From IMG/VR virus record IMGVR_UViG_3300023243_000016, positions 1 to 55,985 of that record: DNA of 55,985 nt; one strand, given 5' to 3'. Source of the stretch: a virus. Position numbers and translations under genes: made by a program. How positions within the stretch are numbered: the first letter of the stretch is position 1; every line of letters begins with the position of its first letter. The notes below the pieces were generated by a model, which saw only the letters and a list, made by a program, of their open reading frames with translations, was not told the DNA's origin and did not search any database. Shown here piece after piece: positions 35,410 through 55,985 of this stretch.

Positions 35410-35676
35410 ATGGCTATGCGACCAAAGGCACGTCCCGCAAATATGGGTAAAGTAGACGGAACACCAGCAGCTGTGACACGATTTATTACAGCTAACGGTA
35501 TTTCTGCAGCTAAAAAGAAATACAAGCCAGCTTCCATTATGGCTGCACAAAAGCTAACAAAAGATAAAGTTAAAGCACCTACAACTTCACTACGTCCAAA
35601 AGGTCGTCCACTGGTCGCTGGTAGCGTAGGTAATACGTCAAGCACTCGTGGTTTTAAGCCGTTGGGAAAAATGTAA
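35410..35676 (+). CDS. Small basic protein, 88 aa
   Basis: Pro/Lys/Ala-rich (MAMRPKARPANMGKVDGTP, SLRPKGRPLVAGSVG), no membrane segment. Lies between holin and endolysin and shares its last base with the endolysin ATG. Role unknown; position suggests lysis or packaging. Confidence 0.6.
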   Translation: MAMRPKARPANMGKVDGTPAAVTRFITANGISAAKKKYKPASIMAAQKLTKDKVKAPTTSLRPKGRPLVAGSVGNTSSTRGFKPLGKM

Positions 35677-36128: not shown

Positions 36129-36138
36129 AGGAAGTAAT

Positions 36139-38378: not shown

Positions 38379-38388
38379 GGAAGCATAA

Positions 38389-40518
38389 ATGGAAGAAGAT
38401 ACTGAAGGCTTTATTGAAGATGATTCAATTGTATTAGAAGATAGTGAAGACTCTTCTATTGACGATGCCAATACTTCTAAAATTATTCCATTCATTATGG
38501 AAAAGTATAATCGTGCAGATGATTATCGTCAGCAGGATGAGTTGCGCTGGCTACGTGCGTATCGTAACTACAGGGGTTTGTACGGTCCCGATGTACAATT
38601 TACAGAGGCAGAAAAGTCTCGTGTATTTATTAAGGTAACAAAAACTAAAACTCTAGCTGCCTACGGGCAAATTGTTGACGTGTTATTTGCGGGTCAAAAG
38701 TTTCCCCTTACAGTTGACCCTACTGAACTGCCAGAAGGCGTAGTTGCAGATGTACACTTTGACCCTAAAGAACCGGATCAGCTTCGTACTTCTGAACTAA
38801 ATGCCAGCGTTAGCCCTTACGGATTTGCTGGTGACGGTAAAGATTTACCTGCAGGCGCTACCGCTAAAACATTGTTAGATAGTATAGGGCCACTTAAAGA
38901 TAAGATTAGCGAAATTGATAATGTTCGTGTAGGTGTAGGTAAAACTCCTACTGCAGTTACTTTTAGTCCTGCAATGATCGCCGCTAAGATGATGCAAAAG
39001 AAAATCCACGACCAACTAGAAGAGTCTAGCGCAAGTAAACATTTACGTAGTACGGCCTTTGAAATGGCCCTGTTTGGTACAGGTGTTATGAAAGGCCCCT
39101 TCGCAGTAGATAAAGAGTATCCTAACTGGGGTGAAGACGGTGAGTATTCACCTATTATGAAAACAATTCCACAAGTATCCCATGTATCCGTGTGGAACTT
39201 TTATCCTGACCCAGACGCAAATAACATGGATGAAGCACAGTTTGTAATTGAACGTCACAAGATGTCTCGTACACAGTTGCGTGGATTAAAGCGTAGGCCA
39301 CACTTTCGCCGTAACGTAATTGATGAAGCAGTCCAACTTGGTGAAAACTATAATAAAGAATCTTGGGAAGACGATCTTTCTGATTACGCACCAGAACACG
39401 GCGTAGAACGGTTTGAGGTACTGGAGTATTGGGGCATGGTAGATGTCGAGATGCTTATGGATCAAGGCGTAGACATTCCTGAAGAGCTAGAAAACGTAGA
39501 TGAGTTGCAAGCTAATGTATGGATTTGCAATGGTAAACTTCTTCGTATGGTTCTTAATCCGTTTAAACCTGCAAATATTCCTTACATGGCGGTGCCTTAT
39601 GAGCTTAATCCTTATAGTTTTTTTGGCGTAGGCATTGCGGAAAACATGGACGATACACAAACTTTGATGAATGGTTTTATGCGTATGGCAGTAGATAACG
39701 CCGTACTGTCTGGTAACTTACTTATTGAGGTAGACGAAACTAATCTAGTACCGGGACAAGACTTGTCTGTGTATCCCGGTAAAGTGTTTAGGCGTCAAGG
39801 TGGTGCGCCGGGACAAAGTATCTTTGGTACTAAGTTTCCTAACGTAGCCCAAGAAAACTTACAGTTGTTTGACAAGGCACGTGTACTTGCAGATGAAAGC
39901 ACAGGCTTCCCTTCTTTTGCGCATGGTCAGACAGGCGTATCTGGCGTAGGACGTACCGCTTCTGGCATATCTATGCTTATGGGAGCAGCCCAAGGCGGAG
40001 TAAAGAACGTAATTAAAAATATTGATGACTACTTGCTTCGCCCACTAGGTGAAGGTTTGTTTAGATTTAATATGCAGTTTGATTATGATCCTGCCATTAA
40101 GGGTGACTTGGAAGTTAAAGCACGTGGTACAGAAAGCTTAATGGCTAATGAAGTACGTAGTCAAAGATTAATGCAGTTTATGCAAATATCTTCTAGTCCA
40201 GCACTTGCACCTTTTGCAAAATTCCAGTATATTATACGAGAGATTGCAAAGTCTCTTGAACTAGACCCAGATAAAGTTACCAACAATATGGACGAAGCAG
40301 CTATTCAAGCTGAGCTTATGAAGGGCTTTCAACAACCAGCTGCAGATGGAAGTCAGGGACCAATGGACCCTACAGGCGCAGGTGGTGGTAATATAGGTAC
40401 GGGCCAAGTTCCAGTGCCTAATGAACAAGGATTTAGTGGAAATGCACAAGGACAAGGAGCACCTGAGCAAGCTCAAGGCAATGGTCAACAACCCCCAGCA
40501 ATGGGACCAGTTCAGTAG
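38389..40518 (+). CDS. Portal protein
   Basis: 709 residues. Follows terL by 10 bases. The core FGVGIAENMDDTQTLMNGFMRM-AVDN is the conserved portal wing motif of this type of podovirus; FPSFAHGQTG, RTASGISMLMGAA and NIDDYLLRPLGEGLF also fit. The acidic N-terminus and Gln/Gly-rich end are disordered. Forms the twelve-part ring through which DNA passes. Confidence 0.88.
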   Translation: MEEDTEGFIEDDSIVLEDSEDSSIDDANTSKIIPFIMEKYNRADDYRQQDELRWLRAYRNYRGLYGPDVQFTEAEKSRVFIKVTKTKTLAAYGQIVDVLFAGQKFPLTVDPTELPEGVVADVHFDPKEPDQLRTSELNASVSPYGFAGDGKDLPAGATAKTLLDSIGPLKDKISEIDNVRVGVGKTPTAVTFSPAMIAAKMMQKKIHDQLEESSASKHLRSTAFEMALFGTGVMKGPFAVDKEYPNWGEDGEYSPIMKTIPQVSHVSVWNFYPDPDANNMDEAQFVIERHKMSRTQLRGLKRRPHFRRNVIDEAVQLGENYNKESWEDDLSDYAPEHGVERFEVLEYWGMVDVEMLMDQGVDIPEELENVDELQANVWICNGKLLRMVLNPFKPANIPYMAVPYELNPYSFFGVGIAENMDDTQTLMNGFMRMAVDNAVLSGNLLIEVDETNLVPGQDLSVYPGKVFRRQGGAPGQSIFGTKFPNVAQENLQLFDKARVLADESTGFPSFAHGQTGVSGVGRTASGISMLMGAAQGGVKNVIKNIDDYLLRPLGEGLFRFNMQFDYDPAIKGDLEVKARGTESLMANEVRSQRLMQFMQISSSPALAPFAKFQYIIREIAKSLELDPDKVTNNMDEAAIQAELMKGFQQPAADGSQGPMDPTGAGGGNIGTGQVPVPNEQGFSGNAQGQGAPEQAQGNGQQPPAMGPVQ

Positions 40519-40660
40519 TTATATTGATACATTGATAGCGCAACAGCATCGTACTATGGAACAGTCTGACAATGACAAGATTATGTATAGGTCACAAGGT
40601 GCTATATACACATTGCGTAGGCTAAAGCTACTTAGAGATGAAGTATTAAAAAATGGCTGA
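40421..40660 (+). CDS. Small helical protein overlapping the portal end
   Basis: 79 residues starting inside the portal gene (98-base overlap, other frame). KLKAMVNNPQQWDQFSSYIDTLI ... YRSQGAIYTLRRLKLLRDEVL has a strong coding character. I recall the same short protein (NNP..W..F..Y, YRSQGAI-x-LRRLK) after portal genes of other marine phages. Ends 8 bases inside the next gene. Role unknown, perhaps head-assembly related. Confidence 0.75.
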   Translation: MNKDLVEMHKDKEHLSKLKAMVNNPQQWDQFSSYIDTLIAQQHRTMEQSDNDKIMYRSQGAIYTLRRLKLLRDEVLKNG

Positions 40661-43600
40661 AGAAAAAGTAAGTCAAGGTTTAAAATTTAACAGAGGTGGA
40701 ACCCCAATGCGGAAACAAATGAAACTTTTTAACGATGGTGGTCTTAAAGAAGAGGGTGGCATGGTAGACAAAGAGTCTGGTAATAAAGTTCCTGTAGGCG
40801 GTACACGTAAAGGTGTTCGTGATGACATACCCGCTATGGTCAGCGAAGGTGAGTTTGTATTTCCCGAAGATGTAGTTAGGTATATTGGTTTAGATAAACT
40901 TATGCAGATGCGACAGAAAGCTAAGGCAGGACTTCAAAATATGGATGACATGGGGCAAATGGGCAATAGTGAAGAAGCTACTGTTCCAGATGACGCACCA
41001 TTAAGTCTCCCTGTTGGCATGGCGGAAGGTGGGGTAGTACAAAATGCGGCACCTCGTTCTTTAGTTGGGGGTGTTGCTCAAACTGCTGCGCCTCGTCAAC
41101 TAACTACTACAACCCCTACTGCAAAAAGATCAGCCGTTAGTTTTAAAGAATTTATGGGTAAAGGGTACGTAGAGTTTAAAGAATATCGTAACTCAGCAGG
41201 CACTTCTTTGTTAATACCTTTTGTGGGCGGCTCTCCCGCATATCCTATTCCATCAGGCTATACAGAATATACACCGACCTCTGACGAAAGTGGTTCTACA
41301 GGCGGAGCATCGCAGGGTACTACCGCTATAGCTACGGAAGTAGGTAACGCTATAAACGCCGCAACGGGCAACGACAAAGACGATAACAATTTTACTGTGC
41401 CAAAGTCTCAATTTCAAAAATCTGGTGGCTGGGATATGGATACGACAGGCTCCGACGGTAAAGATTTACAGCTTTGGATTGACGAAGCGACTAAATTTTT
41501 TGATGGTACGTCTTCTGTAGTCTCTGGCGTTGCTTCTGTTTTTGGATTAGGTGTTCCTGTATACTTACTAAATAAAAGTCAACGGAACCGTGTGATAGAA
41601 GACTTAGACGAAAAAATTGCACAGGCTAAAAAAACTTCTATGCCGGGACAGGTTGCAGCGTTACAAAAAATTAAAGATTCACTAAATGAAGAATCAAAAA
41701 AATCTATTTTAAGTAAAGTAGTAGATGGCATTACCGGAACTATAGGCGACCTGTTTGGTGCAGACGAGGAAGAAAAGAAAAAAGCAGTAACAGAGGTAGT
41801 TAAAATTGAAAACGAAACTTTTAATTTTGGCGATGTAGAAGGTCAGTATAGTAAATCTCCTTCCTTATCTACAGACCTACCGGGTGAGCTTAGTGAACCC
41901 GAATTTACAAGTACAGCTAACATGCCAGCAGCCACTGCAAAAGACGAAGAAAAATTTAAAGATGAATTTGATGCATTTACACGTAAGTACAGTACAGCAC
42001 TAGCCGATGTAGAAAAGAACCTAATACCAAGAGATGTACTAGAGTACATTTTAAAGGATGCTTCGGTGAGGCTGGGTAAAGATGCGGCTCGTGAAATACA
42101 ATCTAATAGTATGACTACACTTTACAACACAGATTACGCAAACAATACTGTTGCCAATTTATTTGGCCCTAACTTTGGTCGGCCTAAGTTATCTACAGAA
42201 GAACAAATAGCTAAACGTGCCAGTATAACACCTTCCGGTGGCGTACCTTTTTCTGCGTCAACCGCTGATCCTCGTTTATTAGAGGCGGCAGGTTATCCAG
42301 TACAAACGAAAGAAGAACAAACACCTTCCTTTACGCCCAGCACACCAAGCTACGATATGTTTGGTAAACCGTACGCTAATGCTACTGTACGTAAGTATGC
42401 AGACGATGCTTTAGCAGATAGCTCAGCTTTTGCAAATACTGTTACCGAAGTAAATAATCTAGTTAAAGGGTATGATTTTAAAACGGACCTTGGGCCACTT
42501 CCCGGTGTTGATCCTAACTTTACACTAGAGTCAACGCAGCAGTTTACGCCTAAAATGACTACTGAAGTACCTAAATTTGATGTACCATCATCCCCACGTA
42601 ATTATACAGATACCGCATACAACTATGGTACACAGATGGATACTACTCTATTTCCTGCAACCGTACAAGACCAAACACAACAAGCTTTTGCGGGAAGCAC
42701 GTACGATACCGTGCCTGCGTATTCGACTAAGCAACCACCCGCACCTGTTGCTGGGGCACCTGTCGCACCTACCTTTCCTGTAGACCCACGTCTTTCTATC
42801 TCTAGTACAGGTCTTCCTGCTGCTACAGCACAAACATTTAACCAAACCTTTGCAACAAATCGTGCAGCAGGTGCTAAAGAGTTTAGCTATGACAGAGATG
42901 GCGATGGTAAAACAGAAAGATACACTACTGATCTTGCTAAACCAGCTGAAGCGGCTAAAGCAGGTTCTAATAGTCTATACCAAACTGCAGCAAATTTGTT
43001 TACCCCCGGTGATGATAAAGAATATGTAGGTGGTGAGATTGTTACTACCGGAAGTAGTAAATCTAAAACAAAGACTACTCCCGCTGCAAGTAAAAACGTT
43101 GCCACTGCAAATGTTATTAATAAGACAAGTGCTCCTATAGCTAAAGCCAATCAGGATAGATTTGGAGATGCTGGTGCAGGTAATGTGTGGGCGGTACAAC
43201 CGGGAACTAATGCAGTCACTAAAGTAAAAGCTGCAAAAGTTGTAGGCTCACGTAGTAAAGAAGCTGTACAGGCAGACATCAATAAAGAAATAGCAAATGG
43301 CTGGACGCCAAGAGCTAACGAACTTGTAAAAGAACGTGCCGCTGCTCAACCTGCACCTACACCAGTTGCAAGCAGCAGTAATAAGGACAGCGGAAACGAT
43401 GGTGGCAACGAAGATAAAATTGTATGTACCGAAATGTATCGCCAAACCCAACTGGTAGATTGGCAACGGTCTATAAAGATTTGGGACATATATCAAAAAA
43501 GGCACTTGACACCCCTACATCAAATAGGTTATCATTGGTTATTCAAACCTTACGTTAAAGGTATGAAGAATAGTTCTATACTAACTAAGTTAGGTGCAGC

Positions 43601-43745
43601 TTTAGCCAAACATAGAACACAACACCTTCGTCATGTACTTACTAAAGGTAAAGCTAAAGATGATATTTTAGGTAATATCTGGTGCAAGATTGTACACCCA
43701 TTAGTATACGTTGCGGGTGTCATTAAAGAAAAGATAGGTAAATAG
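40653..43745 (+). CDS. Large virion structural protein, 1030 aa
   Basis: N-terminal block RGGTPMRKQMKLFNDGG, then DDIPAMVSEGEFVFPEDVVRYIG and LMQMRQKAKAGLQNMDDMGQMGN, which recur in marine phage virion proteins. A long Pro/Thr/Ala-rich, low-order middle contains one calcium-loop-like DRDGDGKTERYT (about residue 750). The last 110 residues (CTEMYRQTQLVDWQRSIKIW ... HLTPLHQIGYHWLFKPYVKGM) form a separate conserved domain with aromatic and basic residues. Lies between portal and scaffold. Confidence 0.75.
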   Translation: MAEEKVSQGLKFNRGGTPMRKQMKLFNDGGLKEEGGMVDKESGNKVPVGGTRKGVRDDIPAMVSEGEFVFPEDVVRYIGLDKLMQMRQKAKAGLQNMDDMGQMGNSEEATVPDDAPLSLPVGMAEGGVVQNAAPRSLVGGVAQTAAPRQLTTTTPTAKRSAVSFKEFMGKGYVEFKEYRNSAGTSLLIPFVGGSPAYPIPSGYTEYTPTSDESGSTGGASQGTTAIATEVGNAINAATGNDKDDNNFTVPKSQFQKSGGWDMDTTGSDGKDLQLWIDEATKFFDGTSSVVSGVASVFGLGVPVYLLNKSQRNRVIEDLDEKIAQAKKTSMPGQVAALQKIKDSLNEESKKSILSKVVDGITGTIGDLFGADEEEKKKAVTEVVKIENETFNFGDVEGQYSKSPSLSTDLPGELSEPEFTSTANMPAATAKDEEKFKDEFDAFTRKYSTALADVEKNLIPRDVLEYILKDASVRLGKDAAREIQSNSMTTLYNTDYANNTVANLFGPNFGRPKLSTEEQIAKRASITPSGGVPFSASTADPRLLEAAGYPVQTKEEQTPSFTPSTPSYDMFGKPYANATVRKYADDALADSSAFANTVTEVNNLVKGYDFKTDLGPLPGVDPNFTLESTQQFTPKMTTEVPKFDVPSSPRNYTDTAYNYGTQMDTTLFPATVQDQTQQAFAGSTYDTVPAYSTKQPPAPVAGAPVAPTFPVDPRLSISSTGLPAATAQTFNQTFATNRAAGAKEFSYDRDGDGKTERYTTDLAKPAEAAKAGSNSLYQTAANLFTPGDDKEYVGGEIVTTGSSKSKTKTTPAASKNVATANVINKTSAPIAKANQDRFGDAGAGNVWAVQPGTNAVTKVKAAKVVGSRSKEAVQADINKEIANGWTPRANELVKERAAAQPAPTPVASSSNKDSGNDGGNEDKIVCTEMYRQTQLVDWQRSIKIWDIYQKRHLTPLHQIGYHWLFKPYVKGMKNSSILTKLGAALAKHRTQHLRHVLTKGKAKDDILGNIWCKIVHPLVYVAGVIKEKIGK

Positions 43746-43746
43746 C

Positions 43747-43956
43747 ATGGAAGAAGAAACATATACATTTGGAGAGTACTTCAATGAAGTCCAAGGCCGT
43801 GCTGCTGAACTATCAGATGAAGAAAAATCTACATTAAGTTCCTTGCAAACATCTCCTCAAGGTGCTATACTAGCAAAAGTATTAGGTCCAGACTTGACAA
43901 TGCTTAGTTCAATGCTTACACCTACACCCAAGCGTGGCTTAGCGGCACGTAGATAA
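43747..43956 (+). CDS. Small helical protein, 69 aa
   Basis: TFGEYFNEVQGRAAELSDEEKSTLSSLQTSPQG, then LAKVLGPDL and a basic end (KRGLAARR). One base after the previous stop. Similar short proteins stand at this place in related phages; likely virion assembly. A 75-base gap follows before the scaffold gene. Confidence 0.65.
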   Translation: MEEETYTFGEYFNEVQGRAAELSDEEKSTLSSLQTSPQGAILAKVLGPDLTMLSSMLTPTPKRGLAARR

Positions 43957-44031
43957 TCCGCTATATTTGACTGGCTACCCATCCCCCTGACAACACACTA
44001 GGCTACGGCGGCCCCAGTAAGAGAGAATAAA

Positions 44032-44889
44032 ATGAACGATACTATTATGGCAGAAGAAATGCAAGCCCCTACTAAGGTAGCCTTTGCAAATCGTAAATAC
44101 TCTAATGAAGACAAACGTAAAATAGAAGAAGAAGAACTAAAAAAACTTATTGCGGAACAAAGTGGCGAAGCTCCTGAACAGGAAGATGAACCAGTAAACG
44201 CAGAAGATAAAAGCTTTAAGAAACGTTATGGCGATCTTCGCCGCCACATGCAAGAAAAAGAAAAAGATTGGGACGATAAGTTTAAACTTATACAACGTCA
44301 ATTAGAGCAATCTACTAAAGAAGAAATTAAACTTCCTAAATCCGATGAAGACATTGACGCTTGGGCAAAGCAATATCCTGACGTAGCGGCTATTGTAGAA
44401 ACTATTGCTATTAAAAAGGCACGGGAACAATCTGCGGGTTTTGAAGAACGGGTAAAAGAAATTGATGAGATGAGAGCTAGTGCCGCACGTGAAAAAGCTG
44501 AGTCGGAATTGCTGTCTGCGCATCCAGATTTTGGTGATATACGTGACAGTGACGAGTTTCACAATTGGGTTGATGAACAACCTAAGTGGGTACAAGACGC
44601 TCTGTATGAAAATGATAGTGATTCCCGTTCTGCTGCACGTGCAATTGATTTGTACAAAGCGGATATGGGTATTAAAACAAAGAAAAGTGCAAGCCCCAAA
44701 GACGCTGCACGTTCTGTAAATAGTCGTAATAATCGTAGTGTTCCTGACACAAGCAACTCCTCTGGTACTTTTAAAGAGTCTCAAGTAAATAAAATGTCAC
44801 CGCAACAATACGAAAAAGCTTCCGATGCTATTATGGAATCTATTCGTACGGGTAAATTTATTTACGATATGTCTGGTAATGCTAGATAA
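44032..44889 (+). CDS. Capsid scaffolding protein
   Basis: 285 residues, highly charged and helical (SFKKRYGDLRRHMQEKEKDWDDKFKLI is a coiled coil; DEDIDAWAKQYPDVAAIVETIA is a conserved scaffold element). Unstructured Ser/Asn-rich linker near 235-250, then a short helical end (MSPQQYEKASDAIMESIRTG) that would bind capsid protein. Directly before the capsid gene. No protease domain seen. Confidence 0.8.
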   Translation: MNDTIMAEEMQAPTKVAFANRKYSNEDKRKIEEEELKKLIAEQSGEAPEQEDEPVNAEDKSFKKRYGDLRRHMQEKEKDWDDKFKLIQRQLEQSTKEEIKLPKSDEDIDAWAKQYPDVAAIVETIAIKKAREQSAGFEERVKEIDEMRASAAREKAESELLSAHPDFGDIRDSDEFHNWVDEQPKWVQDALYENDSDSRSAARAIDLYKADMGIKTKKSASPKDAARSVNSRNNRSVPDTSNSSGTFKESQVNKMSPQQYEKASDAIMESIRTGKFIYDMSGNAR

Positions 44890-44894
44890 ACCTA

Positions 44895-44922
44895 TTGACA
44901 TATAATTTATTTATGTTATAAC
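44895..44922 (+). promoter_or_regulatory. Capsid gene promoter
   Basis: TTGACA (44895-44900), 16 bases, TATAAC (44917-44922) with a TGT just before it (extended -10). Its 254-base leader separates scaffold and capsid genes, so capsid can be made in excess. Confidence 0.8.
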
Positions 44923-44937
44923 TATATGTACAATGTA

Positions 44938-44972
44938 GTAGTGTGGCCCCTACATAGGACTACCCACACTAC
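44938..44972 (+). other. Hairpin in the capsid mRNA leader
   Basis: GTAGTGTGG (44938-44946) pairs exactly with CCACACTAC (44964-44972) over a 17-base loop. Close to the expected 5' end of the capsid transcript, where such stems often protect mRNA. No T run follows, so it is not a terminator. Confidence 0.6.
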
Positions 44973-45143
44973 AACTAACTAAACTTCCCGCAAACAACAA
45001 TAACGCTTTCGGACAACCTAATGTCTCATGGCCCGTTATACTAGAAGGTAGGCCAACTTTCTTGTTAACGCACCCTAGTAGTAATTAGCCTCTGTATAAG
45101 TCATTAGTCGTTTGCATCTGTATCTAATGCTAGGAGAATTAAT

Positions 45144-46202
45144 ATGGCATTCGGAACCGCTGCTGGTTATGGCAATTTACCAAACGGTAATTTCTCACCA
45201 GTCATTTATAGCAAACAGGTGCAACTTGCATTCCGCAAAGCATCTATCTGTGAAGCTATTACTAACTCTGATTATTTTGGCGAAATCGCCAATATGGGTG
45301 ACTCAGTTAAAATTATTAAAGAACCTGAGATCACTGTTCAACCTTACCTACGTGGTACAACTATTACACCACAAGACTTGGACGATGAAGATTTCTCATT
45401 GACAATCGACAAAGCTAACTATTTTGCTTTCAAGGTTGACGACATTGAGGAAGCGCACAGTCACGTCAACTTCCAAAGCCTTGCTTCGGATCGTGCTGCG
45501 TATCGTTTGTCTGACCAGTTTGACCAAGACGTACTTGGTTATCTGACAGGCTTCAAACAGTCTGCAACCCACGGTACACCTGACACCGTTAACACAACCA
45601 CTAACGGTACTGTTGCGGTTTCTACTGCAGGTACTGACGAATTGTTGTCTTCAATGAAAATTGATGCAGCGTCATTTGGTGGTACTGCAACGCAAGCTCT
45701 TGCTCTTGCAGCACGTACTGGTGGAGCTACAGACGCTACACCTGCCGCTGGTGATACTTTTCCATTGACAGTTATTGCACGTATGTCTCGTCTTCTTGAC
45801 CAGCAAAACGTCGATACACAAGGTCGTTGGTTGGTAGTTGATCCCGTATTCATGGAACTTTTGAAAGACGAAGATTCTCGTCTGTTCAATGCTGACTTCG
45901 GTGGTTCTGGTCTCCAGAATGGTCAAATCGGTATGAACATCCACGGTTTCCGTGTATACCAGTCTAACAACTTGCCATCGGTTGGTGATGGTCCGTCCTT
46001 TACAGGTACGAACTCTTCTACTAACTACGGTATGATTGTTGCGGGACATGATTCATCTGTTGCAACTGCTGAGCAGATCAACAAAACTGAAACATATCGT
46101 GACCCAGACAGCTTCTCGGACATTGTTCGTGGAATGCATTTGTATGGTCGGAAAATTCTTCGGCCTGAAGCCTTGGTTAACGCCAAGTACCATTTAGCAT
46201 AA
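45144..46202 (+). CDS. Major capsid protein
   Basis: 352 residues. GNFSPVIYSKQVQLAFRKASICEAIT, GDSVKIIKEPEITVQPY, LTIDKANYFAFKVDDIEEAHSHVN, LSDQFDQDVLGYLTG and GRWLVVDPVFMELLKDE follow the P22/T7-like coat-protein layout of HK97-fold proteins. Own promoter and AGGAGAATTAAT before ATG, as suits the most abundant virion protein. Codons such as GGT, GCT and CGT dominate. Confidence 0.9.
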   Translation: MAFGTAAGYGNLPNGNFSPVIYSKQVQLAFRKASICEAITNSDYFGEIANMGDSVKIIKEPEITVQPYLRGTTITPQDLDDEDFSLTIDKANYFAFKVDDIEEAHSHVNFQSLASDRAAYRLSDQFDQDVLGYLTGFKQSATHGTPDTVNTTTNGTVAVSTAGTDELLSSMKIDAASFGGTATQALALAARTGGATDATPAAGDTFPLTVIARMSRLLDQQNVDTQGRWLVVDPVFMELLKDEDSRLFNADFGGSGLQNGQIGMNIHGFRVYQSNNLPSVGDGPSFTGTNSSTNYGMIVAGHDSSVATAEQINKTETYRDPDSFSDIVRGMHLYGRKILRPEALVNAKYHLA

Positions 46203-46215
46203 GGGAGAATAGAAA

Positions 46216-46695
46216 ATGGCTACTATTTCAACACTATTGTTACCTGCTCACGGTAGTTCACAACGTGGACGTGCACCGTACATGGTACAAAAAACTATTG
46301 TTCTTTCGGATCAGGCTATTGACTGTTCCGCTGGTGACGTAGTTCAATGCTTAACTATTCCTGCTAACACTCGTGTACTACACGCAGGTGTTTGTGTTGT
46401 TGCGTCTGCAACAATGAATACAGGAACAGACGCAACTGTTACACTTGGTGCAGCAGATGCAGATGAGTTTGTTGCAGCGTTTGACATTGACGGTGCGGCT
46501 GATGGTGCGTACGCTCCTTCTGCTACACCTGCGGCTGACGTTACACTTGCTGCTGCAGATACGTTGGACCTTACCTTTGCAGGTTCCGGTGCAACATTCT
46601 CAGCTGGTAAACTTCGTGTTTACGCTGTAATGATGGACGTTAGTGACCAACGTGACGCCGCTCCTGCGGAAGTAGATCGTGACGCACTTGCGTAA
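46216..46695 (+). CDS. Probable head decoration protein, 159 aa
   Basis: Ala/Thr/Val-rich beta protein (VVQCLTIPANTRVLHAGVCVVA, DATVTLGAADADEF). Co-transcribed with capsid and closed by a terminator, the usual place of an outer head or accessory protein. No family motif; DUF-type beta sandwich likely. Confidence 0.6.
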   Translation: MATISTLLLPAHGSSQRGRAPYMVQKTIVLSDQAIDCSAGDVVQCLTIPANTRVLHAGVCVVASATMNTGTDATVTLGAADADEFVAAFDIDGAADGAYAPSATPAADVTLAAADTLDLTFAGSGATFSAGKLRVYAVMMDVSDQRDAAPAEVDRDALA

Positions 46696-46705
46696 ATAAA
46701 TATTT

Positions 46706-46735
46706 AGTGGGGCTGTTTCGATGGCCCCACTTTAC
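46706..46735 (+). terminator. Terminator after the capsid genes
   Basis: Exact 8-base stem AGTGGGGC / GCCCCACT with a 10-base loop and a short TTT. Weak T run, so partial read-through into the tail genes is likely. Confidence 0.75.
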
Positions 46736-46752
46736 AGTATAAGGAATACGAA

Positions 46753-46965
46753 ATGCCTAAAATTAAAAAGTATGCTTTGGGTGGTGTAACAACTCCCGAA
46801 CAAGAAGATAGTCGTTATCGCCCTTCCGCTAATCGTGCGCCGCAAGGTATGTTATCCTCTAGGGGTACTACATCCGCTATGGGTTTGTACGATGGTGGCG
46901 TAGTAACTAAAAAGAACTATTGTAATCCCGTAAAAATTACAGACAACCGTAAAAATAAAAAGTAG
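46753..46965 (+). CDS. Small basic protein, 70 aa
   Basis: MPKIKKYALGGVTTPEQED, GMLSSRGTTSAMGLYDGGVV, ending in a basic tail. The KYALGG and LYDGG pieces resemble the N-terminus of the 1030-residue virion protein (KLFNDGG). Ends immediately before the next ATG. Confidence 0.6.
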   Translation: MPKIKKYALGGVTTPEQEDSRYRPSANRAPQGMLSSRGTTSAMGLYDGGVVTKKNYCNPVKITDNRKNKK

Positions 46966-47352
46966 ATGGCTGGAGTTAACTTCAGGACAGCTAGTAAGTT
47001 TGCTAGTATTGTAGGTAACTCTGCCAGTACTTCTGGTGATCCCAGTAACGCTACGTTATTATTTACTTGTCCTGAAAGCCACGAAGCTGAAATAGTATTT
47101 CTTATGGTAGCTAATGAAGCAACCTCTACAGCAAAAATTGGCATCCAAGTATATCACGCAGAGGATACTACATACCACTTTCTTGTAGCAGAAGAAGCTA
47201 TAGCAGGAAATAACCACAGGCAGTTTATTGGTGGCGGTCCACTGTTCTTACATGCAGGCGACAAGGTATTACTATTTAGGCACGGTGGGTCAGATGAGTT
47301 TGATGCTACACTTTCTGCTAGACTGTACTTCACCCCCGCTAAAAGGCTATAA
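46966..47352 (+). CDS. Virion protein, 128 aa
   Basis: Beta-rich (EIVFLMVANEATSTAKIGIQVYH, GGGPLFLHAGDKVLLFRHGG). Located between head and tail-tube genes, where head completion or fibre-base proteins lie. It resembles short phage proteins with an HAGDK loop. No certain function. Confidence 0.6.
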   Translation: MAGVNFRTASKFASIVGNSASTSGDPSNATLLFTCPESHEAEIVFLMVANEATSTAKIGIQVYHAEDTTYHFLVAEEAIAGNNHRQFIGGGPLFLHAGDKVLLFRHGGSDEFDATLSARLYFTPAKRL

Positions 47353-47354
47353 CA

Positions 47355-48071
47355 ATGAGTACATTTCTTAATTTAACAAATGAACTGCTGCGTCGATTAA
47401 ACGAAGTTCAAATTGATCAATCTGATTTTAGTGCCGTTAAGAATGTTCAGGCACTGGCGAAAGACGCTATAAACTCTGCTATTCGTGAGGCACTTCAGGA
47501 TGCACAGGAGTGGCCCTTTACTCTTATAACCTATGAGCACACTCTTTCTGCTGGTACTAATACTTATTTATTTCCTGCTGACTATTCAAAGGCAGATTGG
47601 GATACGTTTTACATTAAACAACTTTCCTCTAAAAACAACACACCACAAAAATTAGAATTAATTACATACGATCAATACATTTCTAACTTTAGATCAGCAG
47701 AAGACACGGGTGGTACAGGGGCTAGAGATACGCCTCAGTACGTGTACATGACACAGGATACAAAGTTTGGGGTTAGTCCAGTTTCGGATGCAGCTTACGT
47801 AGTTGAGTACCGTTACTGGAAATACCCTGCAGACCTTGTTTTACATGACGATGAGGCTATTATTCCTGATAGGTTTAAGCATGTAGTTATTGATGGTGCT
47901 ATGATGTACATGATGTTGTTCCGGTCTAATGAGCAAAGTGCTTCTTTGCATAGTCAGAAGTTTGAAGACGGTATTAAAATGATGCGCAGACTTCTTGTTG
48001 ACCAACCTGTAAATGTACGATCTACAGTTATGTATAGGTCTTCCTATAATTTAATATCAGATAAAATATAA
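47355..48071 (+). CDS. Head-tail adaptor (tail tubular protein A-like)
   Basis: 238 residues. MSTFLNLTNELLRRLNEVQI and AKDAINSAIREALQDAQEWPF, then FPADYSKADWDTFYI and YVVEYRYWKYPADL, follow the T7 gp11/P22 gp4-type adaptor layout with an N-terminal helical bundle. Links portal and nozzle. Confidence 0.85.
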   Translation: MSTFLNLTNELLRRLNEVQIDQSDFSAVKNVQALAKDAINSAIREALQDAQEWPFTLITYEHTLSAGTNTYLFPADYSKADWDTFYIKQLSSKNNTPQKLELITYDQYISNFRSAEDTGGTGARDTPQYVYMTQDTKFGVSPVSDAAYVVEYRYWKYPADLVLHDDEAIIPDRFKHVVIDGAMMYMMLFRSNEQSASLHSQKFEDGIKMMRRLLVDQPVNVRSTVMYRSSYNLISDKI

Positions 48072-48073: not shown

Positions 48074-49858
48074 ATGGCGGATAATCTACAAACTTTTGTT
48101 TCTGTATGTGCTGGGGGGCTAGTAACTAACGTAGACCCTTTGACGCAGAGCAATTCTTTGTCTGGTAGCGCAATACGTTTAATTAACATGGAGCCTTCTC
48201 TTGAGGGTGGATATAGACGTATAACAGGTTACGCAAATTCTTATGGTACACTTCCCGGTACAGAAAAAGTACTAGGTCTTGCCGTAAATGGCGAAATAAA
48301 TCAGGGCATACTGGGGTGTAGAAAGCCCTCTTCTGGAACTAACTACTTACATTGGTACAATCATTACTACGATGTAGCTCTTGGATCAGGTGAGGGAACG
48401 GCCTTTAGTGTAAGTGAGTCTCTTACTGCGGTAGTTAGCTCAGGAGATAGTACTGCAACAGCAGTGACTGGCACTGTTATATCTAAAACCTCAAACGCTA
48501 TTGTAGTAGACTTTGGTAAGTTACCCAGTTCTGTATTTGCTACAAGCAATATTATTACAGGAGTTACCTCTGCAGCAACAGGTACAGTAGCAAGCACACC
48601 TACTGTAAAAGGTTGGCAGGCTGTAACGTCAGCTGGTAGTCCTACAATGACAGGTGTTGACGTTGTACGGTTTGAAAGATACAACTGGACGGAAGAAGTA
48701 CTACTCCTTACAGATGGAATTAATCCTGCCGCTAAGTATAATGGAACTAACTATGTGCAGATTACCCACGCTAACGCACCTAACAACCCTAAGTTTGCTA
48801 GTGCCTTTGCAAATCATCTTTGGTTAGCGGGTGATCCTGACGAACCTTTTAATATATACTTTTCTTCACCTAACTCTGATATAGACTTTGATCCCGGTAA
48901 TGGTGCTGGCGTTATTAACATTGGTTTTACCGTAACCCAATTAAAATCTTTTCGTAACCAACTTTATGTATTTGGTCAAAACCAGATTAAAAGAATTGTT
49001 GGAGATAACTATTCTAACTTTAGCGTAGAAAATGTTACTAATGACTTGGGTTGCGTAGCGCCTGATACTGTGGTAGAATTTGGTGGTGACATTATCTTTC
49101 TTGGACCAGATGGTATTCGCCCCATTTCAGGTACTTCTAGGATTGGTGACGTTGAACTTGAAACAGTATCTCGTGAAATTCAAAAAACCTTTGAAAACTA
49201 TACAGCCAACGAAGACGTAACAAAACTAAAAGCTTTGGTTATACGCCGTAAGTCTCAGTTCCGTTTATTCTTTGAAGCTAATACTTCTCTATCCCTCCTA
49301 GCAGCTATTCGTAAAAGTTCTTCTGCACAATCTACTTTTGAGTATAGTCAACTTGTAGGCATTGAAGCAACTTCCGTAGCTAGTGGTTATATAGGCCAGT
49401 TTGAATTTGTACTACATGGGAACAGTTCAGGTAAAGTATTCAAGCAAGAAGAGGGTAATTCTTTTGGTGGTGATGATGTACTAAGCGTATACCAAACACC
49501 GTTTTATTTTATGGGCGACCCAGAACTACGTAAGATATTTTATAGAGTTAAAACTTTTCTAAAGTCAGAAGGTGAAGCTACTATAGCTGTAGGCATTGAG
49601 TATAACTTTGGCGACTCTGAAATTGCTACACCTTCAAACTTTGATTTAACTACAGCGGGGGCCGCATCTTTCTTTGACGCAAGTTCTACACTGTACGATG
49701 AAACAGATATTTACGATGGAAACCCTACACCAATCCGTGTTACTAATATAAGTGGTTCAGGCGATTCTATTTCAATAGCGTACGTTACAAACGGTACAAG
49801 TCCTAGTCATACAATACAAGCAATTTCTATTTTGTATGGACTAGGTGACAGGAGATAA
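48074..49858 (+). CDS. Tail nozzle protein (tubular protein B-like)
   Basis: 594 residues, beta-rich. GGLVTNVDPL start, EPSLEGGYRRITGY, VDFGKLPSS, LWLAGDPDEPFNIYFSSPNSD, LKSFRNQLYVFGQNQIKRIVGDN and GCVAPDTVVEFGGDIIFLGPDGIRPI match the propeller-like body of podovirus nozzle proteins. Starts 2 bases after the adaptor gene. Confidence 0.82.
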   Translation: MADNLQTFVSVCAGGLVTNVDPLTQSNSLSGSAIRLINMEPSLEGGYRRITGYANSYGTLPGTEKVLGLAVNGEINQGILGCRKPSSGTNYLHWYNHYYDVALGSGEGTAFSVSESLTAVVSSGDSTATAVTGTVISKTSNAIVVDFGKLPSSVFATSNIITGVTSAATGTVASTPTVKGWQAVTSAGSPTMTGVDVVRFERYNWTEEVLLLTDGINPAAKYNGTNYVQITHANAPNNPKFASAFANHLWLAGDPDEPFNIYFSSPNSDIDFDPGNGAGVINIGFTVTQLKSFRNQLYVFGQNQIKRIVGDNYSNFSVENVTNDLGCVAPDTVVEFGGDIIFLGPDGIRPISGTSRIGDVELETVSREIQKTFENYTANEDVTKLKALVIRRKSQFRLFFEANTSLSLLAAIRKSSSAQSTFEYSQLVGIEATSVASGYIGQFEFVLHGNSSGKVFKQEEGNSFGGDDVLSVYQTPFYFMGDPELRKIFYRVKTFLKSEGEATIAVGIEYNFGDSEIATPSNFDLTTAGAASFFDASSTLYDETDIYDGNPTPIRVTNISGSGDSISIAYVTNGTSPSHTIQAISILYGLGDRR

Positions 49859-49861
49859 AAA

Positions 49862-52800
49862 GTGGCAGGATATACAAGACAATCTTCAGCAGATATTATT
49901 GCAACAGCTGTTGTACGTGCTAACCCGCTGAACGTAGAGTACAATGCATTGAGAGATGCATTTAATTCTAGTAGTGGACACAAGCATGATGGTACAGCAG
50001 CAGAAGGTGCCTATGTACCACTAATTGCTGACGCAGACGCACTTAATAAAGTTGCTATTAACACAGCTAACAATCGTGTTGGTGTATTTGTTGAAGTGTC
50101 TAGTGCTGCCGTAGAACAAATACGTATTCAAGATGGTGCCATTGTACCAGTTACTAACAATGATATTGATCTTGGCACAAGCTCCCTAGAGTTTAAAGAT
50201 TTGTATATTGATGGTACTGCACACATAGATACGCTTGATGTAGATGCAAATGCTGGTATTATAGGAAACTTGACGGTTAGTGGTAACACTATTCTTGGTG
50301 ATGCCGCAAATGATACTGTTACGATTACTGCTGACGTTGCTTCCCCCCTAATACCTTCCGCTGATGATACACATGACTTAGGTGCTGTAGGTTCTGAGTG
50401 GCGTAACCTATACGTAGATGGTACTGCTAACATAGACGCCCTTGTAGCTGACACTGCAGACATTAATGGTGGTACTGTTGATGGTGCTGTCATTGGTGGA
50501 GCTAGTGCTGCTGCTGGTACATTCACTTCTTTGAATGCTTCGGGCACAGCTACACTAGCTACAGTAGATATTAATGCGGGTAACATTGACGGTACTGTTA
50601 TTGGTGCTGGTTCTGCAGCTGCTATTACAGGTACTACAATTACAGGTACATCGCTTGTAGGTGCAGTAACAGGCGATGTTACAGGTAATGCAGACACTGC
50701 TACTGCACTAGAAACAGCAAGAACTATTGGCGGTGTATCATTCAATGGTACAGCTAATATTAACTTGCCGGGTGTTAATACTGCAGGTAATCAAGACACA
50801 TCCGGTACTGCAGCAGATGCAACGGTACTTGAAACTGCTCGAACAATCGGTGGTGTTTCCTTTGATGGTAGTGCCAATATTAATCTTCCCGGTGTTAATG
50901 CTGCGGGTAATCAGAGTACTTCAGGTAATGCCGCTAGTGCAACTATACTAGAGACAGCTAGAACTATTGCTGGAAACTCTTTTAACGGTAGTGCTAATAT
51001 CACTATCGCTGCTACTGACTTATCTGATACAGACCAAAGTCTAGCCACAGGTGATAATGTTACGTTTGCTTCTGTCACAGGTAATCTAACAGGTAACGTA
51101 ACATCTACAGGTGCTAACTCTTTTGGTTCAGTCACAGTTTCAGGTGCAGCAACCTTAAATGGCAACACCATAATTGGTAATGCTGCTACCGATACTGTTA
51201 CAGTTACTGCAGATGTCGCATCTAATCTTATACCTAGTGCAGATAGCTCGTATAGTCTTGGTGATAGCTCTAACTATTGGTCGCATGGATACATTGATGC
51301 TATTACTACTACAGGAAATGTAATAGTCGGTGGTGACTTAACTGTCAATGGTACAACCACTACAGTAGCTACAACTAACATGACTGTATCGGATGCCCTA
51401 ATTGAATTGGGTACAGGTACTACAGGTACTCCCGCTAATGATGCAGGTATTGTCATTGAACGTGGCGATGCAGCTAATGCCTTCATGGGCTATGACGAAA
51501 GTGCTGATAAGTTTACAGTAGGTACGGGTACATTCACAGGTGCCTCCACAGGCAACCTGAGCATCACTACAGGCACACTTGTAGCTAATGTCGAGGGTAA
51601 CGTCACAGGTAATGTAACAGGCTCCTCAGGATCAACAACAGGTAACGCAGCTACAGCTACAGCATTAGCAACAGCCCGTACTATTGGTGGCGTTAGCTTT
51701 GATGGTACAGCTAATATAAACCTTCCCGGTGTTAATGCATCAGGTACACAGGATACATCTGGCAATGCAGACACCGCTACAGCACTAGCGACTGCACGTA
51801 CTATCGCTGGTCAATCGTTTGACGGTACAGGTAATATCTCTATCGCTCCTACCGATCTTACTGGTGTAAACTCTACTGCCACTGAATTAAATATCATGGA
51901 CGGTGATACGTCAGCTTCCGCTACTACTCTTGCAGATGCGGACAGAGTTGTAGTTAATGATGCTGGCACTATGAAACAGGTAGCACTGACAGACTTTGAG
52001 ACATACTTTGAGGGTGCATTAGATACACTCAGTAATGTAACAACTGTGGGTGCTCTTAATAGCGGTAGTATTACAAGTGGCTTTGGCGATATTAATAATG
52101 GCTCAAGTGCTATCACTACAACAGGTACAGTAACATACGGTAACTTGTCCGATGGTACTATTACTATTACAGGCTTCGTAGATGAAGATAACATGGCATC
52201 TAATAGTGCTACACTTATACCTACACAACAATCTGTAGAGGCTCGTATTCAGGCTGTAAGTGCTACAGCTAATAACGTAACTGGTCTTAATGCTACAGGT
52301 ACAGAGCTAAACACTGTAGCTGACTTTTCTGCTGTAAGTGTAGATACAAGCACAGCAATAGCTAGTAACGATGCCCTATTAGTATTTGACAACGGTAACG
52401 AAATAGGTTATCGTGACGTAGACTTACTTGATACGTACTTCTCAGCTACAACTAAAACACTTACCAATAAAACAATAACAAGTCCTATCCTAACAGGTAT
52501 GCACCTTAACGACTCAGGGTTTACTGTTGAGGGTTCCAGTGCAGACGGTAATGAAACTACTGTAGCATTTACTAACCCTACCGCTGCTCGTACTATTACA
52601 TTTACGGATGCAAGTGGTACTGTTGCTTTTACATCCGATATAAACGTAACCAACGTAACTGCTGCTGGGGCATTAATGGATAGTGAGGTTACTAACCTTG
52701 CCCAAGTAAAAGCATTCAGCTCTGCTGACTACGCTACAGCTGCACAGGGTACACTTGCAACAAATGCATTACCTAAAGCTGGTGGTGTGTTAACGGGTGC

Positions 52801-54508
52801 TGTCACAACTAACTCCACATTTGATGGTGTAGATATAGCTGTTAGAGATGGTATTTTAACCACCACTACAACTACAGCTAATGCTGCCTTGCCAAAAGCT
52901 GGTGGAACAATGACTGGCAATATAGTAATGCCAGCATTAGGTACTGTAGATGGTAGAGACCTATCAGTAGATGGGGCCAAGCTAGACCTTATTGAGGCTT
53001 CGGCAGACGTTACAGACGCAACAAACGTAACTGCTGCTGGGGCATTAATGGATAGTGAGGTTACTAACCTTGCCCAAGTAAAAGCATTCAGCTCTGCTGA
53101 CTACGCCACAGCTGCACAGGGTACTACAGCAGATAATGCCCTCCCTAAAGCTGGTGGAGCTTTAACGGGTGCAGTGACAACCAACTCAACGTTTGATGGA
53201 CGTGACGTTGCTACTGATGGTGCAAAGCTAGACACAATAGCAACAAGTGCAAATAACTACGTCCACCCAAACCACACAGGTGAAGTAACATCTACTGCTG
53301 ATGGTGCTACAGTTATTACAGATAACGTGGTGGACGAGGCCAATCTTAAAGTTTCTAACACTCCTACTAATGGTTATTTCCTTTCAGCACAGTCAGGTAA
53401 TACTGGCGGTTTAACTTGGGCGGAAGCTGCAAGTGGTGCTGATCTTTACGCTGAAAACCCAAGCAGCCCTACTGCACCTTCTGCTACTGGGGCTAATGCT
53501 GTGGCTATTGGGAGTGGTTCTAATGCTGGGGGTACAAATGCTGTAGCTCTTGGTGTTGGCAGTGCCGCCGGTGATGGTGCTTTCTGTGCAATCAACGGTG
53601 GTGGTAATACCTCTTATGGGGCTGTTGGCAATAGATCAATCGCTATGGGTGAAGCGGCTCGTGCGCAAGGCCAAGACAGTGTTGCTATTGGTGAGAACAG
53701 TTTAGCTTCTTTAGCAGATAGTTTTGCTATTGGTTACAATACAGACGCTACCGCTATACGTGCGGCCGCTTTTGGATATAACGCACAGGCCAATGGCTCA
53801 AACGCTACGGCCCTTACAAACTCCTACGCATCCGGCACAGACTCCTTCGCAGCAGCTATAGCCAACAACACCTCAAGCTATGGCGCTACTGGGGCTAACT
53901 CTATTGCTATTGGGGAGTTAGCTAAGGCAAGTGGGCAAAAGTCTTTTTCTTTTGGATACTCTACTCAAGCTACAGGAACTTATAGCTACTCTTTGGGAAG
54001 ACAAGCGCAGGCAACGCAAGAGGGTTCTGTAGCAATAGGCTCTTTTGCAAAGTCTGCTATTATCGGCAAAGTGGCAGTCGGCGGGTATAGCCCAAACAAC
54101 ATAGGTGACAGTCAGGCTGGCATTGTAAATCTTTATGCGGACACCGCTAGCGCCACGCCAGAAGCCCTGACCACCAACAACAGCACAGCTTCTACAGACA
54201 ACCAAGTCATCCTTCCCGACAACTCTGCCTTTGCCTTCCATGGTACCATCGTAGCCCGTCAACAAGCATCCGGCGGAACAGCTTGCGCAGCATGGAAAGT
54301 CGAAGGTCTCATCCGCAGGGAAGCTAACGCTGGCACTACAGTGTTAGTCAACAGCGCCATAACCATCCTAGACAATACACCTGCTTGGGGCATGACCCTC
54401 TCGGCAGACACAACAAACGGTGGCCTTAAGATCGAGGTCACAGGTGAAGCGGCAACAAACATTCGTTGGGTCGCTACGATCAATACATCTGAAGTAACTT
54501 ACGCCTAA
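49862..54508 (+). CDS. Main tail fibre with YadA-like head repeats
   Basis: 1548 residues from GTG, 3 bases after the nozzle gene. Residues 1-120 (IIATAVVRANPLNVEYNALRDAF, GHKHDGT) are likely the tail anchor. Residues 120-690 are repeated beta units with (F/S)DGTANINLPGVN and ETARTIGG. Two near-identical 34-residue units lie at 930-964 and 1054-1088. Residues 1210-1405 are trimeric-autotransporter head repeats (NAVAIGSGS, SVAIGENS, NSIAIGELA). The end (PEALTTNNSTAS ... IVARQQASGG ... GMTLSADTTNGGLKI) is a conserved fibre tip. Trimeric side fibre for host recognition. Confidence 0.85.
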   Translation: MAGYTRQSSADIIATAVVRANPLNVEYNALRDAFNSSSGHKHDGTAAEGAYVPLIADADALNKVAINTANNRVGVFVEVSSAAVEQIRIQDGAIVPVTNNDIDLGTSSLEFKDLYIDGTAHIDTLDVDANAGIIGNLTVSGNTILGDAANDTVTITADVASPLIPSADDTHDLGAVGSEWRNLYVDGTANIDALVADTADINGGTVDGAVIGGASAAAGTFTSLNASGTATLATVDINAGNIDGTVIGAGSAAAITGTTITGTSLVGAVTGDVTGNADTATALETARTIGGVSFNGTANINLPGVNTAGNQDTSGTAADATVLETARTIGGVSFDGSANINLPGVNAAGNQSTSGNAASATILETARTIAGNSFNGSANITIAATDLSDTDQSLATGDNVTFASVTGNLTGNVTSTGANSFGSVTVSGAATLNGNTIIGNAATDTVTVTADVASNLIPSADSSYSLGDSSNYWSHGYIDAITTTGNVIVGGDLTVNGTTTTVATTNMTVSDALIELGTGTTGTPANDAGIVIERGDAANAFMGYDESADKFTVGTGTFTGASTGNLSITTGTLVANVEGNVTGNVTGSSGSTTGNAATATALATARTIGGVSFDGTANINLPGVNASGTQDTSGNADTATALATARTIAGQSFDGTGNISIAPTDLTGVNSTATELNIMDGDTSASATTLADADRVVVNDAGTMKQVALTDFETYFEGALDTLSNVTTVGALNSGSITSGFGDINNGSSAITTTGTVTYGNLSDGTITITGFVDEDNMASNSATLIPTQQSVEARIQAVSATANNVTGLNATGTELNTVADFSAVSVDTSTAIASNDALLVFDNGNEIGYRDVDLLDTYFSATTKTLTNKTITSPILTGMHLNDSGFTVEGSSADGNETTVAFTNPTAARTITFTDASGTVAFTSDINVTNVTAAGALMDSEVTNLAQVKAFSSADYATAAQGTLATNALPKAGGVLTGAVTTNSTFDGVDIAVRDGILTTTTTTANAALPKAGGTMTGNIVMPALGTVDGRDLSVDGAKLDLIEASADVTDATNVTAAGALMDSEVTNLAQVKAFSSADYATAAQGTTADNALPKAGGALTGAVTTNSTFDGRDVATDGAKLDTIATSANNYVHPNHTGEVTSTADGATVITDNVVDEANLKVSNTPTNGYFLSAQSGNTGGLTWAEAASGADLYAENPSSPTAPSATGANAVAIGSGSNAGGTNAVALGVGSAAGDGAFCAINGGGNTSYGAVGNRSIAMGEAARAQGQDSVAIGENSLASLADSFAIGYNTDATAIRAAAFGYNAQANGSNATALTNSYASGTDSFAAAIANNTSSYGATGANSIAIGELAKASGQKSFSFGYSTQATGTYSYSLGRQAQATQEGSVAIGSFAKSAIIGKVAVGGYSPNNIGDSQAGIVNLYADTASATPEALTTNNSTASTDNQVILPDNSAFAFHGTIVARQQASGGTACAAWKVEGLIRREANAGTTVLVNSAITILDNTPAWGMTLSADTTNGGLKIEVTGEAATNIRWVATINTSEVTYA
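52652..52752 (+). repeat. 101-base repeat in the fibre gene, copy 1
   Basis: Differs from 53024-53124 at one base (GCT/GCC). It encodes NVTAAGALMDSEVTNL and following residues. Such low divergence next to older repeats implies recent duplication or conversion. Confidence 0.9.
53024..53124 (+). repeat. 101-base repeat in the fibre gene, copy 2
   Basis: Second copy, 372 bases after the first and in the same frame. Confidence 0.9.
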
Positions 54509-54519
54509 AGGAGATACCA

Positions 54520-54825
54520 ATGGCTATTCAAAATACAATCTTAGAAAGCGCCAGCCAGTACGGTATCGCTTTCAACAACGCTTACTACCGCATTGCTACA
54601 GCGGCTATCAGTCGTCAACGTGGGGATGACCCCAAGTTCACAGTAATGATTGACCTGTCAGCATATGCGACAGCTACACCAACTGATGATACTCGTGAGG
54701 TAGACTTCAAACGCTACAACGCAAACCTGACAGACATCGAAGCTGCAACAGGTACTACGTTCCTAGACAAGTGCTATGCTTGGGTCATGGCTCAGGACGA
54801 TATGAACGGTTCGGAGGCTGTATAA
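54520..54825 (+). CDS. Virion or fibre-accessory protein, 101 aa
   Basis: ASQYGIAFNNAYYRIATAAISRQ, then FTVMIDLSAYATATP, then a helical end. AAGGAGATACC precedes ATG. It stands between two fibre genes and its stop is followed at once by the ATG of the repeat fibre, so the pair is probably co-translated. Perhaps a fibre joint; no family known. Confidence 0.65.
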   Translation: MAIQNTILESASQYGIAFNNAYYRIATAAISRQRGDDPKFTVMIDLSAYATATPTDDTREVDFKRYNANLTDIEAATGTTFLDKCYAWVMAQDDMNGSEAV

Positions 54826-55985
54826 ATGTCAGTAACCATCGACTACACAAAGGGTTTCTTTGAGCCATCGCCCGTTGCTGAGAAGGTGGGAACGATCACA
54901 GGCACAACTCTTGACCTCACGTCTGGTAACGTGTTTAGCTACACCCCTACGGCTGAAACTACGTTTGTGTTTAGCAACCCCCCTACGACGGGTACTGCCC
55001 TCGGATTTACGTTGGGGCTAACTGGCGCTGATGTGTCCGCTTCGTATGACATAGCTAATGCAGAGCCCCCTGTTTATGGGTACTTCAGTGTTGCTGCTCA
55101 AGAAACAGCTCCAACCGGCGTCTTCTTCAAACCTGATGGCTTAAAGATGTATGTTATTGGGTATCTTGGAGACGATGTTAACGAGTATGACCTAAGCACG
55201 GCTTGGGATATAAGCACTGCGTCTTACTTGCAGAACTTCAGTATTGCTGCTCAAGAAACAATTCCAAGAGGCATCTTCTTTAAACCTGACGGCACAAAGA
55301 TGTACGTTCTTGGGCAAACAGGAGACGATGTTAACGAGTATGACCTAAGCACGGCTTGGGATATAAGCACTGCGTCTTACCTTCAGAACTTCAGTGTTTC
55401 CGCTGAAGAAGCAACTCCACAAGGCATCTTCTTCAAGCCAGATGGCACTAAGATGTACGTTGTTGGGTCCATTGGAGACGACGTAAATGAGTATGACCTA
55501 AGCACGGCTTGGGATGTCACTACGGCTAGTTACCTTCAGAACTTCAGTATTGCTGCTCAAGAAACAAGTCCAACAGGCATCTTCTTTAAACCTGACGGCA
55601 CAAAGATGTACGTTCTTGGGCAAACAGGAGACGATGTTAACGAGTATGACCTAAGCACAGCTTGGGATATAACTTCAGCCAGTTACTTGCGGAACTTCAG
55701 TATTGCTGCTCAAGAAACAAGTCCACAAGGTGTCTTCTTCAAACCCGATGGCCTAAAGATGTATGTCGTGGCGGAAACAGGTGATGCAGTCTATTCCTAC
55801 ACCCTAAGCACAGCTTGGGACGTAAGCGCTGCCAGCTTTGATTTTCCCACTGAAGGGTACTTCAGTGTTGCTGCTCAAGAAACAGCTCCAACCGGCGTCT
55901 TCTTCAAGCCAGATGGCACAAAGATGTATGTTATTGGGTTCACAGGAGACGATGTTAACGAGTATGACCTAAGCACGGCTTGGGA
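54826..55985 (+). CDS. Receptor-binding repeat fibre, 3' end cut by the window
   Basis: ATG directly after the previous stop; 386 codons to the window edge with no stop. A 40-residue anchor (MSVTIDYTKGFFEPSPVAEK, TGTTLDLTSGN) precedes TPTAETTFVFSNPP. Then come five full repeats and part of a sixth, with FFKPDG, KMYV and DDVNEYDLSTAWD. The fifth repeat has the same variant form (GDAVYSY, ASFDFPTEGY) as in the gene at the window start. Bases 54947-55985 align gap-free with 1-1039. Confidence 0.85.
   Translation, partial: MSVTIDYTKGFFEPSPVAEKVGTITGTTLDLTSGNVFSYTPTAETTFVFSNPPTTGTALGFTLGLTGADVSASYDIANAEPPVYGYFSVAAQETAPTGVFFKPDGLKMYVIGYLGDDVNEYDLSTAWDISTASYLQNFSIAAQETIPRGIFFKPDGTKMYVLGQTGDDVNEYDLSTAWDISTASYLQNFSVSAEEATPQGIFFKPDGTKMYVVGSIGDDVNEYDLSTAWDVTTASYLQNFSIAAQETSPTGIFFKPDGTKMYVLGQTGDDVNEYDLSTAWDITSASYLRNFSIAAQETSPQGVFFKPDGLKMYVVAETGDAVYSYTLSTAWDVSAASFDFPTEGYFSVAAQETAPTGVFFKPDGTKMYVIGFTGDDVNEYDLSTAW

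Follow-up and report, generated by a model that had tools for sequence, protein, structure and literature searches.

Phages diversify their receptor specificity by fibre swapping, point mutation or retroelements. In fibres of the BPP-1 Mtd type the retroelement route confines variable codons to a stable scaffold, and that scaffold changes phage tropism (PMC6199706). In marine phages, metaviromic islands are a related case, where phages that share a habitat and are nearly identical elsewhere differ in a host-recognition gene; the searched text of these reports speaks of fibre-domain replacement or under-recruitment and describes no repeat-propeller mechanism (PMC3909814). β-Propellers themselves are known as receptor-binding parts of phages, e.g. 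from the Staphylococcus phage phi11 and others cited with it. The phi11 receptor-binding protein contains a five-bladed propeller with diverged blades and forms a homotrimer with tower domains, and the passages that describe it report no hypervariable repeats (PMC4901313).

Outside the phage world, the HET-D and HET-E proteins of Podospora anserina (HNWD family) carry WD40 propellers whose near-identical blades evolve in concert. Diversifying selection acts on a few codons per blade at one face, those of the d-a loop and b-c turn, and exchange of blades occurs both between genes and between alleles (PMC1805685, PMC2873952).

Here we describe a phage tail-fibre locus with hypervariable propeller blades. 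The window, i.e. the whole stretch of DNA analysed, is the IMG/VR record IMGVR_UViG_3300023243_000016 with 55,985 bases. In our reading, to which we assign a probability of roughly 0.8, it represents a complete genome of an HMO-2011-type podovirus, opened during assembly inside a single tail-fibre gene that is polymorphic in the population, the fibre ending in two predicted five-bladed propellers with a face diversified by selection and recombination.

Results

The record is collinear with the Roseobacter phage CRP-345, amounts to about 54.9 kb plus the overlap of its ends and encodes the portal, terminase, DNA polymerase and integrase typical of HMO-2011-type podoviruses. Its portal protein is 79-82% identical to those of HMO-2011, CRP-1 and CRP-345, with 82% for the Roseobacter phage CRP-345 and 79% for HMO-2011. 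The circular gene order of the record is that of complete CRP-345, also across the junction, and both record ends fall into a single gap between the homologues of CRP-345 gp50 (tail fibre) and gp45. If the overlap of the two ends is subtracted, 54,946 bases are left, and relatives have 53-56 kb. The collinearity, the single gap and the relative-like size thus point to a whole genome opened inside one gene and, judged from gene content and order, the record is a complete map of an HMO-2011-type podovirus genome, opened within one fibre gene. In nature this map would be circular or terminally redundant. A tyrosine integrase (PF00589) is encoded at 25429-26550, so the phage may be temperate.

The fibre locus spans the record ends, and all its genes lie on the plus strand. 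A 1548-residue fibre with YadA-head repeats (49862-54508; PF05658, E=1.6e-16) is followed by a 101-residue gene without family match (54520-54825), which is syntenic in several relatives and directly precedes the fibre gene under study. The 5' part of this gene, which we term allele B, covers 54826-55985 (386 residues, open at the record end) and encodes an N-terminal anchor and linker, blades 1-5 and the start of blade 6; structure models place its first five-bladed propeller at 55081-55857. The 3' part, allele A, is found at 3-1646 (547 residues, open at the 5' side) and encodes blades 1-5, modelled as the first five-bladed propeller at 135-911, blades 6-9 from position 912, and a C-terminal tail. 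A tail-fibre assembly chaperone (Phage_tail_APC, 1660-2175; PF16778, E=1.9e-16; phrog_4912, tail fiber assembly) follows directly.

The fibre gene is single-copy, i.e. a search of the record with it matches only the two ends. Its C-terminus matches the tail fiber protein family phrog_9017 (E=7.5e-7), and its location in the tail gene module, immediately before the chaperone, is that of a chaperone-assisted tail fibre; by sequence and location the protein would be present on the virion and bind to host cells. The best Pfam match of the repeat protein is SGL (SMP-30). Matches to LPD24, PFO_beta_C, HA1 and others were put down to noise from the repeats, as none of the single stretches passes. In relatives, the VGTITGTTLDL linker and the propellers stay the same behind four or more distinct N-terminal anchors (contigs L007, L015, L025 and L095), an instance of anchor swapping.

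The two ends, 1-1039 and 54947-55985, hold different alleles of the same gene region. They align in frame and without a gap at an offset of 54946, and both contain a variant fifth repeat, as the sequence-only reading had stated. Of the 1039 bases 898 are identical (86.4%), and the fifth repeat is longer, with 55 residues ending in SFD[YF]PTEG. The match takes in the non-repeat N-terminal part before base 135 and is thus not merely a matter of repeats lining up; out-of-register comparisons of the blades give lower identities, mostly 77-80%. Among the 345 shared codons 106 differ, 59 of them with a change of amino acid. In the blades, codons 9, 10, 12, 28 and 29 of the 51-codon unit account for 19 of 52 amino-acid differences and codons 44-46 for another 8. 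The sites picked out from the letters beforehand hold in part; the four residues after FS, also listed, turned out to be no hotspot except at codon 5.

Allele B and the flanks can be followed into near-identical relatives. Over the stretches tested, 33000-48000 and 48826-55985, contig L007 and the window are 100% identical, and L007 holds a complete allele B with 640 residues and ten blades. On the other side of the junction, 1647-9000 of the window is 99.99% identical to L088 and 99.5% identical to L089, a contig that matches all of 1647-21000, and the first 6.8 kb from 1647 are 99.7% identical to L087. Among L087, L088 and L089, the fibres show no more than about 85% identity, whereas the downstream flanks share 99.2-99.7%. 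Taken together, flanks of 6.8-7.7 kb with 99.2-99.99% identity stand against fibres with about 85%, and the locus has, at sequence level, the pattern of a hypervariable host-recognition gene of the metaviromic-island type. Other relatives have different upstream genes and a different N-terminal anchor at the fibre locus.

Identical alleles recur in separate assemblies (L016, L018, L019 and L101; L012 and L013; L015 and L144), which argues against random chimeras. Moreover, L016 and L088 agree in the fibre (99.9%) and in the flank upstream of it (99.9%), whereas downstream they share only 89.6%; alleles thus move between backgrounds.

AlphaFold2 predicts four strands per blade through both sets of five, with pLDDT mostly above 85 in the blades. 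A half-length model comprising one propeller, of moderate confidence (pLDDT 71.9), again has four strands per blade and finds 3qqz (Z 21.2, 227 of 243 residues, rmsd 2.8) and 3nol (Z 19.2) as its best matches; 3NOL is also the best structural match of the phi11 receptor-binding protein (PMC4901313). The structure search with the whole protein returned mostly tandem WD40 proteins and left five plus five versus ten blades unsettled; the half-length model and the blade counts decided for five plus five. The fibre gene product is thus predicted to end in two tandem five-bladed β-propellers.

Blades were counted with a profile built from these fibre genes. In almost every complete phage gene it detects 5, 10 or 15 blades, with a spacing of 51 residues and a longer spacer after the fifth, and the cultured phages fit this scheme, with 5 blades in protein 51 of ICBM2, 15 in CRP-9 gp42 and 15 plus one negligible match in CRP-13 gp43. 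Related blades, mostly grouped in fives, are also encoded in cellular genomes (L157-L203; Patescibacteria, archaea, Pelagibacteraceae and Bacteroidota), and in surface proteins of Patescibacteria, archaea and Pelagibacteraceae inserts of up to about 230 residues separate the fives. Exceptions are allele A with 9 blades, L095 with 11, L151 with 3, and L041 and L062 with 8 detected (five plus three). To judge from the sequences, blade number shifts by whole blades or whole propellers.

In the model, strands occupy blade positions of about 11-16, 22-27, 32-38 and 47 to 3 of the next blade, so codons 9-12 map to the D-A loop and codons 28-29 to the B-C turn. By topology, these two groups are predicted to share one face of the propeller, with codons 44-46 in the C-D loop on the other face.

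Selection on blade codons was assessed by a pairwise count over 15 distinct alleles, which uses no likelihood model and ignores phylogeny, as recombination removes a usable tree. By this count pN/pS is 1.92 at codons 9, 10, 12, 28 and 29 (bootstrap 1.71-2.18) and 0.16 at the remaining codons. In the FFKPDG core, whose comparison with the variable sites had been suggested as a check, pN/pS is about 0.01. The diversification postulated from the two ends hence holds; the varied face would be the receptor-binding one. Codons 44-46, proposed along with the others, are variable, yet not positively selected by this count (0.50). The window pair alone gives pN 0.41 and pS 0.27 at the five codons and pN 0.05 and pS 0.31 for the remainder. 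These five codons also rank highest in amino-acid entropy, in the near as well as in the distant set, with a Spearman coefficient of 0.82 between the sets across all sites.

In the near clade, silent sites next to variable codons (codons 7-10, 25-27 and 41) are nearly invariant and other silent sites are saturated. A DNA-level signal at these sites was considered and dropped, since they are free in distant relatives; their invariance is read as recent shared ancestry.

Blades have nearly forgotten their position in the gene, as their identity is 82.2% at the same position in different alleles, 82.2% at different positions of one allele, and 81.3% at different positions of different alleles, i.e. 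nearly equal regardless of position. In distant relatives, blades are 71.6% identical within a gene and 64-65% between genes, again without an effect of position, which is concerted evolution. Mutual information between codons falls to near zero (background) beyond about five codons. A cassette of 15 nucleotides, codons 44-48, is strongly linked internally and at most weakly elsewhere, and is linked neither to codons 9-12 nor to codons 28-29. Linkage that fades within about five codons points to intragenic recombination. Recurrent mutation can also lower linkage, but alone it would not keep multi-base patches intact while unlinking them from each other.

Discussion

The phage blades resemble those of HET-D and HET-E in that they evolve in concert and show positive selection at codons of the d-a and b-c loops, i.e. 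they follow an HNWD-like mode of evolution. They are not members of the HNWD family of WD40 allorecognition proteins, as WD40-type models stay below their cut-offs and NACHT is absent; HET-D and HET-E are fungal NOD-like receptors with WD40 blades in propellers of seven to eight, whereas the phage protein is a fibre with 51-residue blades of the SMP-30/YVTN type in units of five. The same blade is found in the cultured phages ICBM2 (Lentibacter phage) and CRP-9 and CRP-13 (Roseobacter phages), where the genes are annotated as hypothetical and the blades are more diverged; the ICBM2 gene is flanked by tail assembly chaperone genes. A limited literature search turned up no phage fibre reported to vary in this way.

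We suggest the following scheme. The assembly would have opened inside the polymorphic fibre gene, leaving a different allele at each end of the record. At five codons per blade, predicted to lie in the D-A and B-C loops of the same propeller face, amino acids change faster than silent sites, and scaffold codons are under strong purifying selection. Recombination between blades and between alleles may then spread the variants, so that blades become nearly interchangeable and few-codon patches assort independently, as the lost positional identity and the short linkage suggest. A variable cell-surface receptor, e.g. a glycan, is the most likely target of the varied face, and a near-clonal phage population would thereby hold many binding specificities. 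The variation probably changes which bacteria the phage can grip. Whether the locus amounts to a repertoire system we consider an even bet. In such a system, few-codon patches would recombine between blades and alleles and so diversify the receptor-binding face of the tandem five-bladed propellers without a dedicated mutator, and a near-clonal population would gain a combinatorial set of variable surface residues, up to about 50 in each fibre.

One reservation concerns allele A and is compatible with this scheme: the odds are about equal that this allele is in part an assembly artefact, either a collapsed blade or a chimera of alleles. Where its relatives have ten blades, allele A, with blades 6-9 in 912-1646, has only nine, the last of them one codon short, against the rule of 5, 10 or 15. 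A 78-bp sequence occurs in it twice without mismatch, at 947 and at 1100 and thus one blade apart, and could have made the assembly collapse a blade, and two exact allele-specific patterns found no second copy of it in other viral contigs. On the other hand, gain and loss of blades is seen elsewhere. The eleventh blade of L095 (gene from 4862) is a near-duplicate of blade 1, i.e. a fresh copy, and L097 and L117 (gene from 6848) carry an identical five-blade allele.

The second explanation offered by the sequence-only reading besides population alleles at an assembly end, namely tandem paralogues, would place allele B and allele A side by side in one genome, with the middle between them missing. 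Such arrangements exist, as the propeller genes of some distant relatives stand in pairs or triplets (L050, L055, L086 and L108) and in L014 a second propeller gene starts after the chaperone. In near relatives with an intact locus, however, there is one fibre gene with the chaperone directly after it, in several cases also with the 101-residue gene before it. In L007, allele B closes with the C-terminal tail usual for these genes, the start of the same chaperone comes next, and the CRP-345 gene order is complete without extra genes. With the gene being single-copy in the record, we regard paralogues as improbable; the evidence supports population alleles.

Less probable still is that a diversity-generating retroelement hypermutates the variable codons. 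Codon 10 resembles NNT, with T as the third base in 94% of near-clade blades, in the style of retroelement variable regions, but this bias is absent in distant relatives. Unlike in the BPP-1 Mtd type (PMC6199706), the substitutions are not adenine-specific: adenines in adjacent CAA, GAA and ACA codons are unmutated, and codon 9 also changes at bases other than adenine. An RVT_1 search of the window and 11 related records found no reverse transcriptase while positive controls responded, which argues against such an element.

Finally, the ends could be an exact terminal redundancy of one genome with sequencing or assembly errors, as the group-typical size after subtraction of the overlap would allow, but this can be practically dismissed given 141 differences in 1039 bases that are structured by codon and blade position, the exact reproduction of allele B in L007 and the linear IMG/VR class with no end repeat found. 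In this respect the ends are, as had been noted from the letters, unlike a terminal repeat. The accompanying objection to a simple circle, that joining end to start breaks the frame, is true of abutting ends; the ends overlap, however, and merging them by overlap keeps the frame, so the argument is moot.

An assembly opened within a polymorphic fibre gene thus remains our preferred explanation. The fibre locus is one, its flanks are near-identical among relatives, its alleles are divergent and its blades come in fives. This is also a warning that a genome may be complete and still be classed as linear, when its assembly has stopped in two alleles of one such gene. By a rough estimate, contigs break in the fibre gene no more often than expected by chance. 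For the diversification of phage receptor specificity, the data point to a further route, i.e. repeat-propeller blades that evolve in concert while a handful of codons in each, all on one face, diversify, much like those of fungal self/non-self receptors. If true, this would explain why abundant aquatic phages can remain near-clonal and yet vary in how they grip their hosts, and the question is testable because the cultured relatives CRP-9, CRP-13 and ICBM2 carry the same kind of gene.

The neighbouring YadA-head fibre at 49862-54508 is also mosaic, with 94% DNA identity to L013 over 51761-52624 and about 60% amino-acid identity elsewhere.
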